Below, piece after piece: positions 7,766 to 43,946 of a stretch of 47,326 nt of DNA; position 1 is the stretch's first letter; every line of letters begins with the position of its first letter. The position numbers and the translations under genes were made by a program. The stretch comes from Candidatus Omnitrophota bacterium (lineage in GTDB: Bacteria; Omnitrophota; Gorgyraeia; Duberdicusellales; 4484-171): positions 1 to 47,326 of the forward strand of contig JALOCC010000011.1 in NCBI GenBank assembly GCA_023227945.1, given 5' to 3'. Under the pieces are notes generated by a model. The model saw only the letters and a program-made list of their open reading frames with translations. It was not told the DNA's origin and did no database searches.

Positions 7766-8587
7766 TCATTCTTTGGCTCTACGATATAAAAAAGAGCCGA
7801 CGAAAAATATAAAATTCACCATCACAATGGTAGCGCCTGATGGAAGATTTAGAACATACGAAGCAAAGATACCTATAATTACTGAAATAACCGCAAATGT
7901 TCCGGCAAGGGCTATGGTTGAACGAAAACTTTTTACTACCTGCAAAGCAGATATTGCCGGCAGGATAATCAAACTTGAAACCAGCATTGTTCCTACGATC
8001 TTGATTCCTAATACTACAACCAGCGAAGTCAACAATATTAAAATCCTATTAACCAAACGTACTTTTATTCCTGACACTTGAGCGTATTCCTCATCAAAGG
8101 TTATGGCGAATAAATCATGGTAAAAAAGCCCGATAATTAAAGCTACGATCAAAGAAATTATAACCGTCATCCAGACTTCAAAGCTACTCACTGAAAGGAT
8201 ATTACCGAAAAGATAACTGAATAAATCTACGTTAAAACCACCGGCGGTGCTCGCAATAATCACTCCAAGGGCTATACCAAAAGATGAAACAAGCCCTATT
8301 GCTGCATCGCCATATACGGCTGCTTTTTCATTGAGCTTAAGGATAAGAAGTGAAGCGAGCCCGACTAAAGGAATAGAAATAACCATTGGTTGAGAGCGCA
8401 AAAGAAGCCCAATGGCTACGGTAGCAAAGCTTACATGGGCAAGGCCGTCGCCGATGAGTGAAAACCTGCGTAAAACAAGGAATACACCCAAACAAGAACA
8501 TCCTAGAGCCATAAACGAACCCGCGATAATTGCGCGTTGCACAAATGCATATTTAAGGGCTTCTTGAATCTGTTGAAATATATCCAT
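7766..8587 (-). CDS. znuB: zinc/manganese-type ABC transporter permease (ZnuB-like)
   Basis: A 273-residue polytopic protein with about eight membrane segments, matching the ABC-3 permease family (ZnuB/MntB/TroC). Typical family blocks are seen: LGCSCLGVFLVLRRFSLIGD near the N-terminus, GLAHVSFATVAIGLL, and a C-terminal VGTMLVSSLIILPAISALQV. It forms the channel for the divalent metal delivered by the binding protein encoded at 9375-10385. Its ATG lies one base past the ATPase stop, so translation is coupled. Zinc is the likeliest substrate given the Fur/Zur-type regulator at the operon head and the His-rich binding protein. Manganese cannot be excluded. Confidence 0.88.
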   Translation of the reverse strand: MDIFQQIQEALKYAFVQRAIIAGSFMALGCSCLGVFLVLRRFSLIGDGLAHVSFATVAIGLLLRSQPMVISIPLVGLASLLILKLNEKAAVYGDAAIGLVSSFGIALGVIIASTAGGFNVDLFSYLFGNILSVSSFEVWMTVIISLIVALIIGLFYHDLFAITFDEEYAQVSGIKVRLVNRILILLTSLVVVLGIKIVGTMLVSSLIILPAISALQVVKSFRSTIALAGTFAVISVIIGIFASYVLNLPSGATIVMVNFIFFVGSFLYRRAKE

Positions 8588-8588
8588 T

Positions 8589-9323
8589 TTAATGCCTGTG
8601 ACAAATAAGGTGTTGGCTTACGCCAAAATATTCAGACATCCGGGGAGATTTACAGAATTCTTCAAATGTTCCGTAAAAAATAACCTGCCGGTCTAAATAA
8701 AGCAGTTTTGAGGCATATTTGCCGACTGAAGCTATATCATGCGAAACCAAAAGTACAGTTACATGTTTTTCTTTATTAAGTTTCTGCACAGTCTCATAAA
8801 ATGTTTCTCGCGACTGCGGATCAAGAGCAATAGTCGGTTCATCAAGAATAAGAACACTGGGCGAATGCACGAGAGAACGAGCTAACAGAACTCTTTGTTG
8901 TTGACCACCTGAAAGTTTGCCTATGGGGCGATCCTTGAGGCTTGTAATCTTAAGCGTCTTCATGATTGCTTCAGCTGCCGCATAATCTTCTTTTGTTAAC
9001 CGCTTGGGGAACTTTTTACAACAATACACCCCGGAAACAACTATTTCCTTAGCGGTAGCTGGAAAACGCTGGTCAAGAAATGACATTTTCTGAGGAAGGT
9101 ATCCTATATGTTTATGTAAAGTAAACCTTGAAAGGCTCTCACCCTGGAAAACAATCTTACCTTCAAAAGAAACCAATCCCAAAAGTGCTTTTACCAAAGT
9201 AGTTTTGCCGGAACCATTAGGCCCGACAATGCCAATGTAATCACCGGCTTCTACTTTGAAGTTTACGCTAGATAACGCTTCAATATTTTGGTATTTAACG
9301 CTTAAGTTTTTTACTTCTATCAT
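8589..9323 (-). CDS. znuC: zinc/manganese-type ABC transporter ATPase (ZnuC-like)
   Basis: A 244-residue cytoplasmic ATPase with Walker A (GPNGSGKTT), Q-loop region (GYLPQKMSF), signature LSGGQQQRVLLARS, Walker B (VLILDEPT) and the switch histidine in LLVSHD. It closely resembles the ATPases of ABC metal importers and sits between the permease and the binding protein. The only ribosome-binding-like sequence (GGGG, about 10 nt before the ATG at 9323) lies in the arm of the hairpin at 9334-9383, so its translation may depend on how that hairpin folds. Confidence 0.9.
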   Translation of the reverse strand: MIEVKNLSVKYQNIEALSSVNFKVEAGDYIGIVGPNGSGKTTLVKALLGLVSFEGKIVFQGESLSRFTLHKHIGYLPQKMSFLDQRFPATAKEIVVSGVYCCKKFPKRLTKEDYAAAEAIMKTLKITSLKDRPIGKLSGGQQQRVLLARSLVHSPSVLILDEPTIALDPQSRETFYETVQKLNKEKHVTVLLVSHDIASVGKYASKLLYLDRQVIFYGTFEEFCKSPRMSEYFGVSQHLICHRH

Positions 9324-9333
9324 TTTTTATTTA

Positions 9334-9383
9334 CCCCGTTAGAAATCTCTAACAATTAAATATCCCCGTAATTTCTAACGGGG
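9334..9383 (-). promoter_or_regulatory. znuA-znuC intercistronic hairpin with alternative folds
   Basis: Perfect 13-bp arms CCCCGTTAGAAAT (9334-9346) and its complement (9371-9383). Two smaller hairpins compete with the long stem: GTTAGA/TCTAAC (9338-9353) and CCCCGT/ACGGGG (9364-9383). The element covers the znuA stop and the GGGG upstream of znuC. It may stabilise the upstream mRNA, limit znuC translation or act as an attenuator. Confidence 0.6.
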
Positions 9384-10385
9384 CGAACACTCAAGGCCGA
9401 CTCTTAATTTATTCAAATTATCTTCCATAATCTCAAGGAAAGTAACTCCCCTGCTTAGCCCATCTTTACTGACATTATGTGCTCCATGAAGCAATTCAAG
9501 TTTAGCTCCTGTTTCGGAAGCAATAGTGCGCGCTATTTTTGGATCAAGCAACTCTTCGTAATAGACATAGTTTGTTCCGGAAGCTTTTAGCTTCTTAATT
9601 AATTCAACTATTGCCTTAGGGGTTGGCTCGGCATTCGGAGAAAAACCTTCATACGGAGAGATATATTCTAATCCATACCTTTTAGCAAAATATCCAAAAG
9701 CAAAATGCCCGCCGTAGATAAGTGTCTTATGCCTGCAGCTAAGAAACGTGTCTTTAAAATGCCTGTCAAGATGGATGAGTTTAGTATTATATTCATTCGC
9801 ATTCTTTAGATAGAAATCTTTGTTGTCGGGGTCTTTATCGGCAAAGGCATCGGCAATAGTTTGCACCATGATTTGGGCATTGCCTAAATCAAGCCATATA
9901 TGCGGGTCTTTACCGCCATGGTGATGGTTATGTTCGTGTTCTTCTTTATGGTGTTCGGCATGTTTATCATCTTCTCTTTCGTGATGCTCTCCTTCTTCAT
10001 GCTCAGCTTCCTCGTTATGGTCTTCTTCGCTCATAAGTTCAACATCTTTACTTGCGTCAACTACTAAAAGATTTTTATTAGAAATTCCTTTAAGTACATC
10101 CTCTACCCATGGTTCCATATATTTTCCAGTGTAAATAAACACATCTGCCTTGCTAATCCTAATAATATCCGCTGGTTTAGGTTCAAAAGTATGTGACTCA
10201 ACCCCTGGTGGCAGTAACAACGTAACGTTTACTTTATCTTTGCCAATTTGTTTTGCGAAATCATAGGTTGGGAATAATGTTGTTATAACTTCAATTTTCT
10301 TCTTGTCTTGCAAGCTTTGAGCCATGATAGATGCTACCCCAACCAAAAATACAAATAAGAAAGCTATAAAAATTTTCTTAAACAT
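9375..10385 (-). CDS. znuA: periplasmic zinc-binding protein (ZnuA-like)
   Basis: A 336-residue cluster A-I metal-binding protein. The signal peptide (residues 1-22, ending IMAQ) exports it to the periplasm. The family start IEVITTLFPTYDF and the ligand-bearing blocks PPGVESHTFEPKP, KDPHIWLD, YGGHFAFGYFAKRYG and ETGAKLELLHGAH are all present. A long Glu/His-rich loop (about residues 120-155, with stretches such as HEHNHHHGG) is the hallmark of zinc-specific ZnuA proteins and may buffer zinc. AGGAGG precedes the ATG at 10385. The hairpin at 9334-9383 follows it, as often seen after binding-protein genes. Confidence 0.92.
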   Translation of the reverse strand: MFKKIFIAFLFVFLVGVASIMAQSLQDKKKIEVITTLFPTYDFAKQIGKDKVNVTLLLPPGVESHTFEPKPADIIRISKADVFIYTGKYMEPWVEDVLKGISNKNLLVVDASKDVELMSEEDHNEEAEHEEGEHHEREDDKHAEHHKEEHEHNHHHGGKDPHIWLDLGNAQIMVQTIADAFADKDPDNKDFYLKNANEYNTKLIHLDRHFKDTFLSCRHKTLIYGGHFAFGYFAKRYGLEYISPYEGFSPNAEPTPKAIVELIKKLKASGTNYVYYEELLDPKIARTIASETGAKLELLHGAHNVSKDGLSRGVTFLEIMEDNLNKLRVGLECSPR

Positions 10386-21379: not shown

Positions 21380-21517
21380 TTTTCACAATCCTCTCACGAG
21401 GGCAGACATATTCAACAAGGGGACGACCTCTCTGTAAACAGCTCTTGGAAAGTTAGAGAACCCTTCTTTATCCACTTCGAAGAGCAGACATATTTCACGA
21501 AAGAGCACCCTCTCCGT
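21380..21517. repeat. 82-bp-period repeat, two units
   Basis: Two units in register, with the anchor GGGCAGACATATTC at 21400 and GAGCAGACATATTTC at 21482, exactly 82 bp apart. The first unit carries ACCTCTCTGTAAACAGCTC at about 21426 and the second CACCCTCTCCGTTTAC. The gap between fur (21225) and the MATE gene (21518) has no ORF. Confidence 0.7.
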
Positions 21518-39673: not shown

Positions 39674-40165
39674 ATAACAACACCCTGAGACAATCCTACT
39701 TTAACTATCATCATCGTTCCTATTGTTTTGAATTCTACCGGCATACTACGCGCTACACTTACTATATATCTAAATATATAGTAAGTTAAATCAAATGTTT
39801 TTTCAATATTAAAATGTTATTATATGCTGGCTCATCCTTAAACATGAATATAGCCCGCTAATAGGGAGAACCACTTTATTTACAATTTAAATAAAATTTA
39901 GGAAACTTGCACCGCCCTTACCAAGGGCAGAAATAATTCACAAGGGGACGACCTCTCTGTAAACAGCTATTTGAAAATGTGAGAGGCAGTTCGACTCCCA
40001 TCACCAGCCCAGAAATATGGCGCGGCAGAAAAACTCTCTGTATACAGGTATTTACAGAATTCAACTCCAGGGGAGAAATGACAAGACGTGATTATCAGTG
40101 AAGGTGGGATTGATTTTACACAAGCGAACCTTCTTTGTATTATATATGACGTTTTGTTTATTCAA
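39674..40165. repeat. gap with hairpin and two units of the 82-bp repeat
   Basis: A 492-nt stretch without a gene between the antiporter and the RelA/SpoT cassette. It contains the hairpin at 39757-39786 and two repeat units anchored at 39925 (GGGCAGAAATAATTC) and 40007 (GCCCAGAAATATGGC), again 82 bp apart. CCTCTC at 39952 can pair with GAGAGG near 39981. Confidence 0.65.
39757..39786 (-). promoter_or_regulatory. AT-rich 13-bp hairpin upstream of the antiporter
   Basis: Perfect arms ACTTACTATATAT / ATATATAGTAAGT with a 4-nt loop, 84 nt before the antiporter ATG. It could be an operator or part of the leader. There is no T-tract to support a terminator. Confidence 0.45.
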
Positions 40166-40858
40166 CTATTTTGTTTTATGAGATTCAAATATTGAATCTA
40201 CAAGGCGAGTACAACCAGATGCAATCCTTGCTAAAACACGCAATTGTTCTTTACAGTGAACGTTTTTTGTCTCGTAAGGATAATTTATAACATGCGACAC
40301 CTCACCCCACACTTCTTCCATTAGGGTTCTTATTTGTAATTCACATGTCATGGGGGTTTCACGCTTCGGTTTCAATATGTAATGAACACTTGTATATTGG
40401 GAAGGTATAAAAACTGCTTTGATGCCCAACGTTTGAAAAAAAGCTTTATTCTCTATATCCCAAGTGTAAGCCACGGGCTTCCTTATTAATGTCCAAAAAT
40501 GTTCTCTAAATACTTTAAGGACTGCGGGATGGATTTCTAACATTTGCTTAGTATGCAGATGTAGAATTCTGATGCCAGCTAAATCATTAATTTGACTAAA
40601 CAAATTTTCTGCTGTAATTCGAAATGGTTTCTTTTCTGAAAGATTTCTTCTTGCAATTCTTTCCAGCTTGTCTTTTAAATGCTTTGGATCTTTTTTCCGC
40701 ACCTTAATCGAATGTATTAATTTACGAAGATCTTCATTTTCCATAAGATCGTTCGTAAGATTATCTGCTATGTTTTTAAAATTATCTAAATTGTGTACGT
40801 ATGTTTCTATTGCGTTTTCTATCTGGACATTTATTTTTTTATTTAAACTCTGGGGCAT
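40166..40858 (-). CDS. RelA/SpoT-type nucleotide (alarmone) synthetase
   Basis: A 230-residue single-domain protein of the RelA/SpoT nucleotidyltransferase fold, without hydrolase or regulatory domains. Visible motifs: VRKKDPKHLKDKLERIA (ATP-binding basic region), INDLAGIRILHLHT, YTSVHYILKPKR and CELQIRTLMEEVWGEVSHVI, which hold the expected Asp, Arg, Tyr, Glu-Gln-Arg and His residues. It should transfer pyrophosphate to a nucleotide (pppGpp/ppApp) or, as in ToxSAS toxins, to tRNA. It follows the ParA-type gene by 3 nt with no ribosome-binding site of its own, so it is translationally coupled. It is the likely effector of the three-gene cassette. Confidence 0.85.
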   Translation of the reverse strand: MPQSLNKKINVQIENAIETYVHNLDNFKNIADNLTNDLMENEDLRKLIHSIKVRKKDPKHLKDKLERIARRNLSEKKPFRITAENLFSQINDLAGIRILHLHTKQMLEIHPAVLKVFREHFWTLIRKPVAYTWDIENKAFFQTLGIKAVFIPSQYTSVHYILKPKRETPMTCELQIRTLMEEVWGEVSHVINYPYETKNVHCKEQLRVLARIASGCTRLVDSIFESHKTK

Positions 40859-40861
40859 ATT

Positions 40862-41854
40862 TCAGTTTGTTTCTATTTTTTGAATAACGGCTTCTGCAAT
40901 ATCTTTGAATGCTTTATCCGCTTCTCGAACGAGAGTTTCATTACCTCCGACAACTTTCCATAAAGGCGTTCCTTGTTCTTGTGCTAACGGTATGAGTGTT
41001 GAAAAATCTTTTACTTCCCCCAGCTTGGAATGTTGGACCGATTGAGGCGCTAATGAAACGTCCAATTTACGCAAGAACGCAATGATATCACTATGTAACT
41101 GCTTTTCAAACTTCGCAACATATCTAGCATGTGTTTGAACTATTACTTTTCCGTACGTCTTAAATCGCACTGGAATATAGCCTAAAAATCTTGGCCTACC
41201 TAAAAGAAGGTGGGCACCATCTGGCGCAATTGCAGATATTGATTCCCAATCTTTAATCCATGAGCGTAACGTAACCCCAAGAGTTTTGAGTGCTCTTACA
41301 GAAAATAAATCGCAGGCTCCAGGGATAATAAAATAATCGCAATCCATCAAAATTGCTCTATTTAGAGGGCCAATATTTGGACCCGTATCATACAAAACGA
41401 AGTCGACGTTTAAACCAGACGCCACTTCATCAACCAACGAACTTAGGGCCGATGTTCCATCAAAACCCTTAATTTTTCTTTGGAAGCAAGCCGACCAGAA
41501 GTCTGAGAGCTCAGATTCAAATTCAGAAAGCCTGATATCTCCTGGCAATAAATGAAGTTTAGGAATGTTTAAAGGAATGGCGGAAATTTTTTTCTGACCA
41601 CCGCGAGCTTCTACGATTGGTTTTAATGCAGACCAAATTGTTTGACCATTGGAGGCGTCTGAATGGTCTAAAAGACTATTTACCACCGCATCTTCAATTA
41701 AATAAGAAGTAAGATTACACTGCGGATCGGAATCTACCAGTAATACTGAGCGTCCTAATTTAGCTAAAGCAGCGGCTATATTAATCGTAAGTGTAGTTTT
41801 TCCAACACCACCCTTATGATTAAATATTGAAAGTCTTACGGCTTTACGCTTCAT
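40862..41854 (-). CDS. ParA/Soj-type ATPase of the RelA/SpoT cassette
   Basis: A 330-residue P-loop ATPase: deviant Walker A NHKGGVGKTTLTINIA (residues about 12-27), VDSDPQCNLTSYL (Walker A'), VLYDTGPNIGPLNRAI (Walker B) and DYFIIPGACDLFSVRAL. It is longer than chromosomal ParA, with an extended C-terminal half (GYIPVRFKTYGKVIV, PLAQEQGTPLWKV). No ParB or parS-like repeat lies nearby, so a partition role is unlikely. It starts as an ATGA overlap with the upstream gene. As sensor, switch or antitoxin for the RelA/SpoT protein it would define a new type of cassette (inference). Confidence 0.85.
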   Translation of the reverse strand: MKRKAVRLSIFNHKGGVGKTTLTINIAAALAKLGRSVLLVDSDPQCNLTSYLIEDAVVNSLLDHSDASNGQTIWSALKPIVEARGGQKKISAIPLNIPKLHLLPGDIRLSEFESELSDFWSACFQRKIKGFDGTSALSSLVDEVASGLNVDFVLYDTGPNIGPLNRAILMDCDYFIIPGACDLFSVRALKTLGVTLRSWIKDWESISAIAPDGAHLLLGRPRFLGYIPVRFKTYGKVIVQTHARYVAKFEKQLHSDIIAFLRKLDVSLAPQSVQHSKLGEVKDFSTLIPLAQEQGTPLWKVVGGNETLVREADKAFKDIAEAVIQKIETN

Positions 41855-42405
41855 TTTGACTCTTGTTGTGGAGTTTTTTTGCCCTGTGACTTTTTCCTTG
41901 TTCTTTGGGCACGCTCCAACACTGCTTTGGCAGCGTTGAGATCTGGTAATGCTTGTACATACTGCTCACCAAGTGCACTTAACTGTTTACTTCCTCCCCC
42001 AGCTGGCACCAAAAGTCTTTTATTCGCTGCGTTTGTAACTGCAAACCCAGGGTTTGAAAATTTTGGTTGTGCTGCTTCTGTATTTAATTTGCTCAAATCA
42101 AGAGTTTTAAAATGAGGGGTGTTGCGGTAATGACTCAAATAATATGCTAGACAGGCAATTCTTTGAATGTCTGTTTTAGGATTTTTGTCTAATAGAAATT
42201 CTTTTGGTGATCTTTCTTCACGATCTGAAAAATTTAACTCAAGACTATTGTTGCTAACAGGAAATGGTTTATGCAGATTGACTTCGTTTAGCTTAAGAAA
42301 TGTTATAACTGATTGAAGTATTCTTGATTGAGTATCCGGATCAACTCCTGACAGGCTCGATATAATTTTATTAAAAACACCCAATTCGATATTTTCATTT
42401 GTCAT
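41851..42405 (-). CDS. first protein of the RelA/SpoT cassette, probable winged-helix
   Basis: A 184-residue soluble protein. The N-terminal helices (LSGVDPDTQSRILQSVITFL) are followed by a polar linker and then an apparent winged-helix domain (about residues 75-165). That domain shows TDIQRIACLAYYLSHYR, PKFSNPGFAVTNAANKRLLV and KQLSALGEQYVQALPD, an arrangement of helix, Asn-Pro turn and wing ending in L--G--YV--LP seen in many small defence-associated proteins. The tail is basic (RTRKKSQGKKTPQ), suggesting nucleic-acid contact. Strong AGGAGGG precedes the ATG at 42405. Probably the autoregulator or antitoxin/sensor. Confidence 0.6.
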   Translation of the reverse strand: MTNENIELGVFNKIISSLSGVDPDTQSRILQSVITFLKLNEVNLHKPFPVSNNSLELNFSDREERSPKEFLLDKNPKTDIQRIACLAYYLSHYRNTPHFKTLDLSKLNTEAAQPKFSNPGFAVTNAANKRLLVPAGGGSKQLSALGEQYVQALPDLNAAKAVLERAQRTRKKSQGKKTPQQESK

Positions 42406-42778
42406 CGTTTGTCCCTCCTATTTGTAACTTAAAAATAAAAATCAGAACATTTCAAAAAGCATCACTAGGTTTATATTAATTAGCATCTGCCCTCTCCAGT
42501 ATTCTTTACGAGTCTATATCTCTGGGAGCAATAGGCATATTATATACCAAACAGCACAAATATCAATAAATCAAGCATATAAGAAACAGTTTTATAGCCA
42601 CTTTTGTCGCCTTTTCTAGGAGTTATATCCCTCTACTTATCGATAATTTAGAGAGCTATACAATGTTACCTCTTTCTTAATGCAAACCTTTTTTGAGCTG
42701 TTTTACTGTATATCACGAGAGGTAATCTCTATAAGACGCCCAAAAATACAATGCTCCAGAAAGACTCTCTGTATGCAA
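42406..42778. repeat. gap upstream of the cassette with a repeat unit at its far end
   Basis: A 373-nt stretch without a gene. It holds the leader and an unclear promoter of the cassette on the minus strand (TTGAAA near 42450 with a weak -10). At 42735-42778 there is a partial repeat unit: GCCCAAAAATACAATG at 42738, then CCAGAAAGACTCTCTGTATG, parallel to the unit at 40007-40050. The cassette is thus bracketed by similar repeats. Confidence 0.5.
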
Positions 42779-43538: not shown

Positions 43539-43946
43539 TTACCGTTTCCAAAATTTTATCTCAAAAGCCTTCTCATCAATTTCTTTACCTTTAAAATGTT
43601 CTGCTAATTGAAAAATAATTGCTTTGAACTCATTTTCATCCATGTCTGATTTCATGTCATTTAGAATGGCAGCTGCCACTACAATGTCATCCTCCTTTCT
43701 AGGAATTCTATGATCAAACGTTAAATAAAGTGGGTCTTTATGGTTATTTTCAACTAACTTTATCCCCGTATAATAACAACGAAAGGAATTACCATCCCAA
43801 GCTCTTTTTAAAGCTTGGATTCGTGCCTCTTTATTAATTTTTGCTCGCATATCAACCCTATCTATTAACTTTTTACAGCGCTTGCAGTAATTAGCCAGGA
43901 AATGAGTAGAGCCGCGGCAGATTGGGCATTCTTTAGAATTTTTCAT
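43539..43946 (-). CDS. HNH-like zinc-ribbon protein
   Basis: A 135-residue protein. The first 30 residues hold a zinc ribbon (CPICRGSTHFLANYCKRC). The middle has FRCYYTGIKLVENNHKDPLY, then LTFDHRIPRKEDDIVVAA, which is an HNH-endonuclease-like core (Cys-Tyr-Tyr-Thr-Gly, then Asp-His-Arg-x-Pro). The last conserved His/Asn of the HNH motif is uncertain, so nuclease activity is not assured. It is co-oriented and tightly packed with the HD gene (15 nt) and surE (4 nt). Possible roles include DNA processing in a mobile element. Confidence 0.6.
   Translation of the reverse strand: MKNSKECPICRGSTHFLANYCKRCKKLIDRVDMRAKINKEARIQALKRAWDGNSFRCYYTGIKLVENNHKDPLYLTFDHRIPRKEDDIVVAAAILNDMKSDMDENEFKAIIFQLAEHFKGKEIDEKAFEIKFWKR

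Follow-up and report, generated by a model that had tools for sequence, protein, structure and literature searches.

The 47,326-nt stretch of DNA analysed here (the window) is contig JALOCC010000011.1 of a Candidatus Omnitrophota bacterium (GenBank assembly GCA_023227945.1), and its minus strand carries a compact cassette of three genes. The first gene, which we call X (41851..42405), has an open reading frame (ORF) of 184 amino acids for a predicted basic winged-helix protein; the middle gene (40862..41854; 330 amino acids) encodes a ParA/Soj-type ATPase; and the last gene (40166..40858; 230 amino acids) encodes a stand-alone RelA/SpoT-type synthetase, or RSH. X and ParA share a 4-nt ATGA overlap, ParA and RSH are separated by 3 nt, and an AGGAGGG ribosome-binding site (42413..42419, minus strand) lies 7 nt ahead of X. 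This confirms the layout that a first-pass annotation had described for positions 42405 to 40166, including all three ORFs, both junctions and the AGGAGGG.

The trio is conserved as a unit. Querying a genome collection with ParA gave 66 loci, of which 22 form a group at 50-63% ParA identity and 44 are more distant. Together with one further locus (L091) and the window, the group of 22 makes up a set of 24 triad-type loci. X, ParA and RSH occur in the same order and on the same strand in 22 of these 24 (20 of the 22 collection loci, L091 and the window). As for the two incomplete loci, L011 starts at the ParA start, at a contig end, while in L019 ParA is truncated and RSH is missing. X is present in 23 of the 24, and the remaining locus is the one that begins at a contig end. 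The first-pass annotation had held that its idea of a system would fail if the three families were not found together elsewhere; they are. The genes also lie close together: with gene starts that were chosen mechanically, the X-ParA spacing ranges from -29 to +23 nt (19 loci) and the ParA-RSH spacing from -4 to +26 nt, with one outlier of 104 (18 loci). Furthermore, pairwise distances across the 22 complete trios are correlated (0.76 for ParA-RSH, 0.50 for X-ParA and 0.46 for X-RSH; none of 2000 permutations was as high), which could be explained in part by shared ancestry alone.

We compared the flanking ORFs all against all (blastp at 1e-6; 1765 ORFs from 23 loci and part of the window). The sole cluster present in at least three loci was a DNA methylase (L001, L002 and L008). 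Because no fourth gene is common to the flanks, we take the functional unit to be the three genes. In particular, no shared cluster in this comparison was a ParB gene. We relied on this comparison because a direct search for ParB was insensitive: it used two single-sequence queries, neither of which recovered the other's ParB. We also looked for parS-like 16-mers with at most 3 mismatches from the parS consensus, and found none in the window and one (in L007) in the 23 related loci. As the relatives share no fourth gene, nothing points to a partition locus.

Across the 230 amino acids of RSH, PF04607 is the only family above its cut-off, and there is no hydrolase or regulatory domain. The synthetase core (residues 54-197; 40268..40699, minus strand) contains R54, K56, K64, D92, G95, R97, Y155, H159, E173, Q175, R177, W184, E186 and H189, all of which are invariant in the 19 aligned rows. 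S157 and R67 are each found in 18 of the 19 (with Thr and Asn, respectively, in the other row), and Trp133-Asp134 is invariant in all 19. The catalytic His is followed by Tyr-Pro in 18 of 19 members, versus Tyr-Lys in the RelP and RelQ-type chains that we compared. The chain has a RelQ-type fold and terminates at residue 230 with the synthetase fold, without a fused C-terminal antitoxin domain. Its nearest named relative (87% identity over the whole length) is labelled Candidatus Omnitrophota, and its two matches in PADLOC-DB 2.0.0 are near E = 0.02. (Related synthetases of 343-389 amino acids, with an N-terminal synthetase and a long extension, are found on two plasmids and in one genome: L068, L069 and L092.)

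The ATPase matches Pfam AAA_31 (1e-28) and the ParA-like phrog_164 (8e-43), and in a family profile search the closest solved chain was 3pg5 (7e-47). As read from the sequence, its ATPase motifs are intact. The deviant Walker A motif KGGVGKTT (residues 14-21; 41792..41815, minus strand) is invariant in all 20 aligned members and includes the signature lysines, Lys14 and Lys19. Against PADLOC-DB 2.0.0, its matches at E of 0.001 or better are to two PDC-M28B models and are confined to some 40 residues of the P-loop. None of X, ParA and RSH has a full-length match to an anti-phage system model in that database.

X has 2397 homologues at E ≤ 1e-3 (the best 120 of these 2397 were listed), and it has no significant match in Pfam, NCBIfam, PADLOC or the other family libraries that we scanned. 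We read its nature from a structure model (mean predicted local distance difference test score, pLDDT, of 82.7) together with lists of similar folds; Foldseek by itself gave no significant match for the model. The model contains a winged helix (residues 76-158; 41932..42180, minus strand) plus further helices, so that the winged-helix character suggested by the first-pass annotation holds at the level of the model. X is thus predicted to be a DNA-binding winged-helix protein with a basic tail.

We also read 10 loci with remote X-like proteins. In five of them (L084, L090, L118, L126 and L131), the X-like gene directly precedes a gene for a protein of 243-313 amino acids; in the other five (L085 and L127-L130), we saw no such neighbour by eye. 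Some of these following proteins have nuclease or HEPN-like features and others are of unknown family. In L084 the neighbour is DUF4145-like, below the family cut-off, and in L118 it is a pP_pnuc_1 nuclease, with a type I restriction specificity gene alongside. Because half of the loci lack such a neighbour, this pattern is only a lead. Two other observations concern these loci. The protein that follows the X-like gene in L126 has, by eye, an R-N-x-x-H stretch. One 1.6 Mb genome (G1710; L125 and L127-L129) has four X-like matches, suggesting a wider family of small winged-helix proteins, and the neighbours at the three of its loci that we read look ordinary.

The trio is rare and scattered. 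The 22 collection loci carry 12 phylum labels, and the complete trios carry 11 named labels, plus the window. Because most of the records are metagenome bins (20 of 22, the isolates being a Mycobacterium and Tardiphaga robiniae), individual labels could be mistaken. Indeed, the genome draws for the phylum of the Marinimicrobia record and for the class of a Gammaproteobacteria record (L013) overlapped in part, so at least one of these two titles is doubtful. In draws of genomes around five centre genomes, close X matches were found in 1 of 294, 2 of 247, 1 of 296, 1 of 200 and 1 of 297 genomes; without the centre genomes, there was 1 in 1329, although in many of these genomes the scoring covered just part of the first-look candidates, so that some matches may have been missed. 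X was absent from searches of 72,556 plasmid records, 50,697 phage records and viral contigs. In a midpoint-rooted tree of ParA proteins (which leaves out L053, L060, L065 and L066), the 23 triad ParAs form one clade with support of 100/100. Well-supported pairs within this clade cross phylum labels: Boseongicola (Pseudomonadota) with Vicinamibacterales (Acidobacteriota) at 100/99, and Marinimicrobia with Tardiphaga at 97/95. For this reason, we read the trio as a probable chromosomal accessory unit that has spread by horizontal transfer.

The more distant relatives of this ParA have other partners. In 33 of the 44 more distant ParA loci, a HEPN protein is encoded just downstream of ParA, versus 0 of 22 triad loci. 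(The HEPN partners were called with a profile built from ten of them.) All eight of the HEPN partners that we tested against Pfam match PF18735, seven of them above the cut-off and one (L031) just below it (28.0 versus 28.4 bits), and three of the eight also match the MAE_28990/MAE_18760-like family weakly. In the tree, the 33 HEPN-linked ParAs and the ParA of L021 form a clade (100/98) that is separate from the triad clade, and the union of the two clades is supported at 97/92. The L021 locus (7941-9970) itself consists of a Burkholderia ParA that falls beside the HEPN-type clade, followed by a 311-amino-acid protein of unknown family that is not HEPN. One Thiomargarita contig (L022, 6158-9672) has a tandem pair of ParA-HEPN units, and in L053, ParA is split and a HEPN protein is also present.

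The first gene varies as well. A genome from the order of Burkholderia sp. WSM2232 (L117, 4326-7092) encodes an AbiTii protein (2.7e-40), then ParA after 164 nt, and then RSH, which overlaps ParA by 4 nt; there is no X. On the triad profile, this ParA scores 341 bits, between the triads (403 to 558) and the HEPN-linked ParAs (142 to 200). An RSH of this kind was found at 1e-20 in 2 of 250 genomes of the order Burkholderiales, one of them a weak match. The RSH of L117 is 59% identical, over residues 29-221, to that of a Caballeronia locus (L067, 6865-7974), in which a ParA gene that is broken near its start and the Walker A motif lies upstream of a closely related RSH. X is not on that replicon, and this ParA sits on a long branch that does not belong to the triad clade. 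The pairing of ATPase and effector and the identity of the first gene therefore vary between related loci, with thinner evidence in the case of X.

To see whether the trio lies among defence genes, we compared 80 flank proteins (chosen from 140 flank ORFs of at least 170 amino acids; 22 loci, 38.0 kilo-residues) with 80 control proteins (34.1 kilo-residues) encoded some 18 kb or more away from the trio in 11 of the same genomes. At 1e-10, the flank proteins matched 85 PADLOC families and the controls 9. This contrast is rough, because it counts families rather than proteins and because large helicases and methylases match many models. Defence models are nevertheless matched more often near the trio, as the first-pass annotation had suggested checking. 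For example, HmaA and HmaB directly follow the trio in L008, a fused type II methylase-restriction protein is in the flank of L054, and there are methylases in the flanks of L001 and L002. Among ten flank proteins picked by hand, six had matches (one weak) and four did not. The phage integrase family was found in 3 of the 80 flank proteins.

In the window itself, four of the seven neighbours that we scanned match families (SurE, an HD-domain protein, a TetR-type regulator and a sodium/proton exchanger), and there was no defence gene among the seven. Between the SurE and HD-domain genes, a 135-amino-acid protein (43539-43946) has a four-cysteine cluster and weak matches to DnaJ-type zinc domains. 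A promoter-like site (TTGATA-16-TATAAT, 11 of 12 matches; 42539..42566, minus strand) lies about 130 nt upstream of X, and is weak because such sites occur in the stretch at chance level (11 observed versus 10.3 expected). Scans with Rfam and for tRNAs gave no hits. The cassette is bracketed by two 40-nt direct repeat copies that are identical at 31 of 40 positions (200 shuffles reached 26 at best), and we considered these as its ends. We rejected this, as the core of the repeat also occurs at 21428, 37882, 37964 and 39953; because it recurs in this way, we consider it a dispersed intergenic repeat and no proof of insertion. On the plus strand, its core resembles CTCTCTGTA(A/T)ACAG and is found at 21428, 37882, 37964, 39953, 40034 and 42765. 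Two pairs of cores have a spacing of 81-82 nt, and a stretch like the T arm of a tRNA lies inside the pair at 39953 and 40034.

What might the trio do? We propose that it is a growth-arrest or immune switch in which ParA, with its winged-helix partner, keeps RSH inactive until there is a signal of infection or damage, and we give this proposal about even weight for and against. RSH would be the effector, a predicted toxic enzyme. ParA would be the controller, driven by nucleotide, because it persists where the effector changes (to HEPN) or the first gene does (to AbiTii): an ATPase gene directly before the effector gene is the common part of X-ParA-RSH, AbiTii-ParA-RSH and ParA-HEPN. X would anchor the complex to DNA, or would inform it, by means of its winged helix and basic tail, and ParA together with X would restrain RSH before the trigger. 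The trigger might be a change in the state of the DNA, or in the nucleotide or DNA state of ParA, which would free RSH. The freed RSH would transfer pyrophosphate to a nucleotide or to the end of a tRNA, and translation and growth would stop.

The main rival is that the trio is a regulatory, non-toxic alarmone switch, in which ParA and the winged-helix protein sense the state of the chromosome or the cell cycle and tune (p)ppGpp from a RelQ-like synthetase. In the fold comparison, RSH is nearer to RelQ and RelP than to the toxSAS proteins CapRel and FaRel2; this RelQ-like fold favours the alarmone switch and weighs against a toxic effector. The first-pass annotation had drawn a link to ToxSAS toxins, but with this fold the label is not yet justified for RSH. 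However, nearly all members lack the Tyr-Lys found after the catalytic His of RelP and RelQ-type chains, so that the evidence on the substrate points both ways: the fold leans to RelQ and RelP, and the motif differs. Furthermore, the trio is sparse, with its single close X among the non-centre genomes, and its phylum labels are mixed; the kin of this ParA pair with HEPN RNases; and an AbiTii gene lies upstream in L117. On balance, we think that an alarmone switch is unlikely, but it deserves more weight than any of the other rivals.

Alternatively, the trio could be a toxSAS toxin-antitoxin pair with X as the sole antitoxin and ParA in an accessory role, such as that of a maintenance factor. 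DNA-binding antitoxins are common, and X is first in the operon and is found in every triad-type locus except for the one that starts at a contig end. But L067 and L117 have ParA-RSH without a nearby X, and the best correlation of distances is between ParA and RSH. We consider this improbable. ParA ATPases are known for moving DNA, and the cassette might instead be a partition remnant, with ParA stabilizing a mobile element and the synthetase as a passenger. This would fit with the ParA motifs, with the few integrases in the flanks, and with the related ParA-RSH pair (L067) being on one replicon of the plasmid collection. We rejected it as the main explanation because the flank comparison showed no shared fourth gene such as ParB (the direct ParB search was insensitive), there was a single parS-like 16-mer within 3 mismatches in the 23 related loci and none in the window, and the plasmid and phage records yielded no X; we view it as very unlikely. 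Finally, the rarity of the trio is all that speaks for a chance adjacency of unrelated genes. The conserved arrangement in 22 of 24 loci, across 11 named phylum labels and the window and with reading frames that overlap or almost touch, refutes this reading, which has next to no chance of being correct.

A broader and more tentative version of the immune switch is that the winged helix-turn-helix-ParA-synthetase, AbiTii-ParA-synthetase and ParA-HEPN loci belong to a single modular family of immune systems. In these, a ParA clamp on the nucleoid would read the state of the DNA via exchangeable sensors, and would free interchangeable effectors that shut down RNA and translation when the DNA is attacked or replaced. 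We see this as possible, but with less confidence than in the switch itself. If so, then chromosome-partition ATPases would be a general chassis for abortive immunity. As one ParA clade goes with an alarmone-type synthetase and the sister clade with HEPN RNases, ParA-type ATPases may control toxic effectors more generally. If they do, then the DNA-responsive cycle of a partition-type ATPase would be a new trigger for abortive immunity or dormancy, and the alarmone field would gain a synthetase subfamily that combines a RelQ-like fold with a toxin-like setting. The trio is also compact enough for a single plasmid.

The first-pass annotation stated that the system did not match any type that could be named. 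We would amend this: the trio itself is undescribed in the literature that we searched, but it has a recognizable relative in the ParA/Soj-HEPN dyad. This dyad (MAE_18760 family) was proposed in 2013 to be a toxin-antitoxin system with ParA as the antitoxin (PMC3710099). In both, a ParA/Soj ATPase gene is next to a small effector gene, and the sister clade of ParAs has the dyad layout. In contrast, the effector of the dyad is a HEPN RNase and the predicted effector of the trio is a RelA/SpoT synthetase, no X was seen at the dyad loci, and the triad ParAs and HEPN-linked ParAs form two separate clades. Also, PF18735 (RiboL-PSP), the family of the HEPN partners that we found, is listed with ParB in Table 1 of PMC3710099.

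The toxSAS modules (FaRel2, PhRel, PhRel2, CapRel and FaRel) resemble the trio in having a stand-alone RelA/SpoT synthetase domain and a small operon partner; as in those modules, the adjacent partner genes are conserved. In the trio, however, the ParA ATPase sits between X and RSH. We did not recognize a pZFD, Tis1 or Panacea antitoxin domain in X from the family libraries (pZFD and Tis1 were not compared with it directly). The fused CapRel chains have 343-344 residues with a C-terminal antitoxin domain, versus 230 residues and no such domain in RSH. RelQ and RelP share their type of fold with RSH, which differs from them in its fixed three-gene operon, about 20% identity, the Tyr-Pro in place of Tyr-Lys, and Trp133-Asp134.

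The AbiTii abortive-infection family is linked to the trio by L117, where an AbiTii gene is upstream of ParA-RSH in the place that X occupies in the window and the triads. Effectors reported for the VMAP ternary NTP-dependent conflict systems include MinD/ParA-like domains and RelA nucleotidyltransferase domains (PMC7159879). In those systems the domains form part of large multi-domain proteins, and the ParA-like ones are predicted to be inactive, whereas the trio has separate genes and intact ATPase motifs. With the ParABS partition systems, the trio's ParA shares the deviant Walker A motif, but not a conserved adjacent ParB gene. In the openly licensed literature, we found neither the winged helix-turn-helix-ParA-synthetase trio nor its kinship to HEPN dyads, which is a weak absence as many of the results were unrelated. 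Thus, stand-alone toxic synthetases and ParA-HEPN dyads were already known, while the unit of winged-helix protein, ParA and synthetase, and its kinship to the HEPN dyads, appear to be new.
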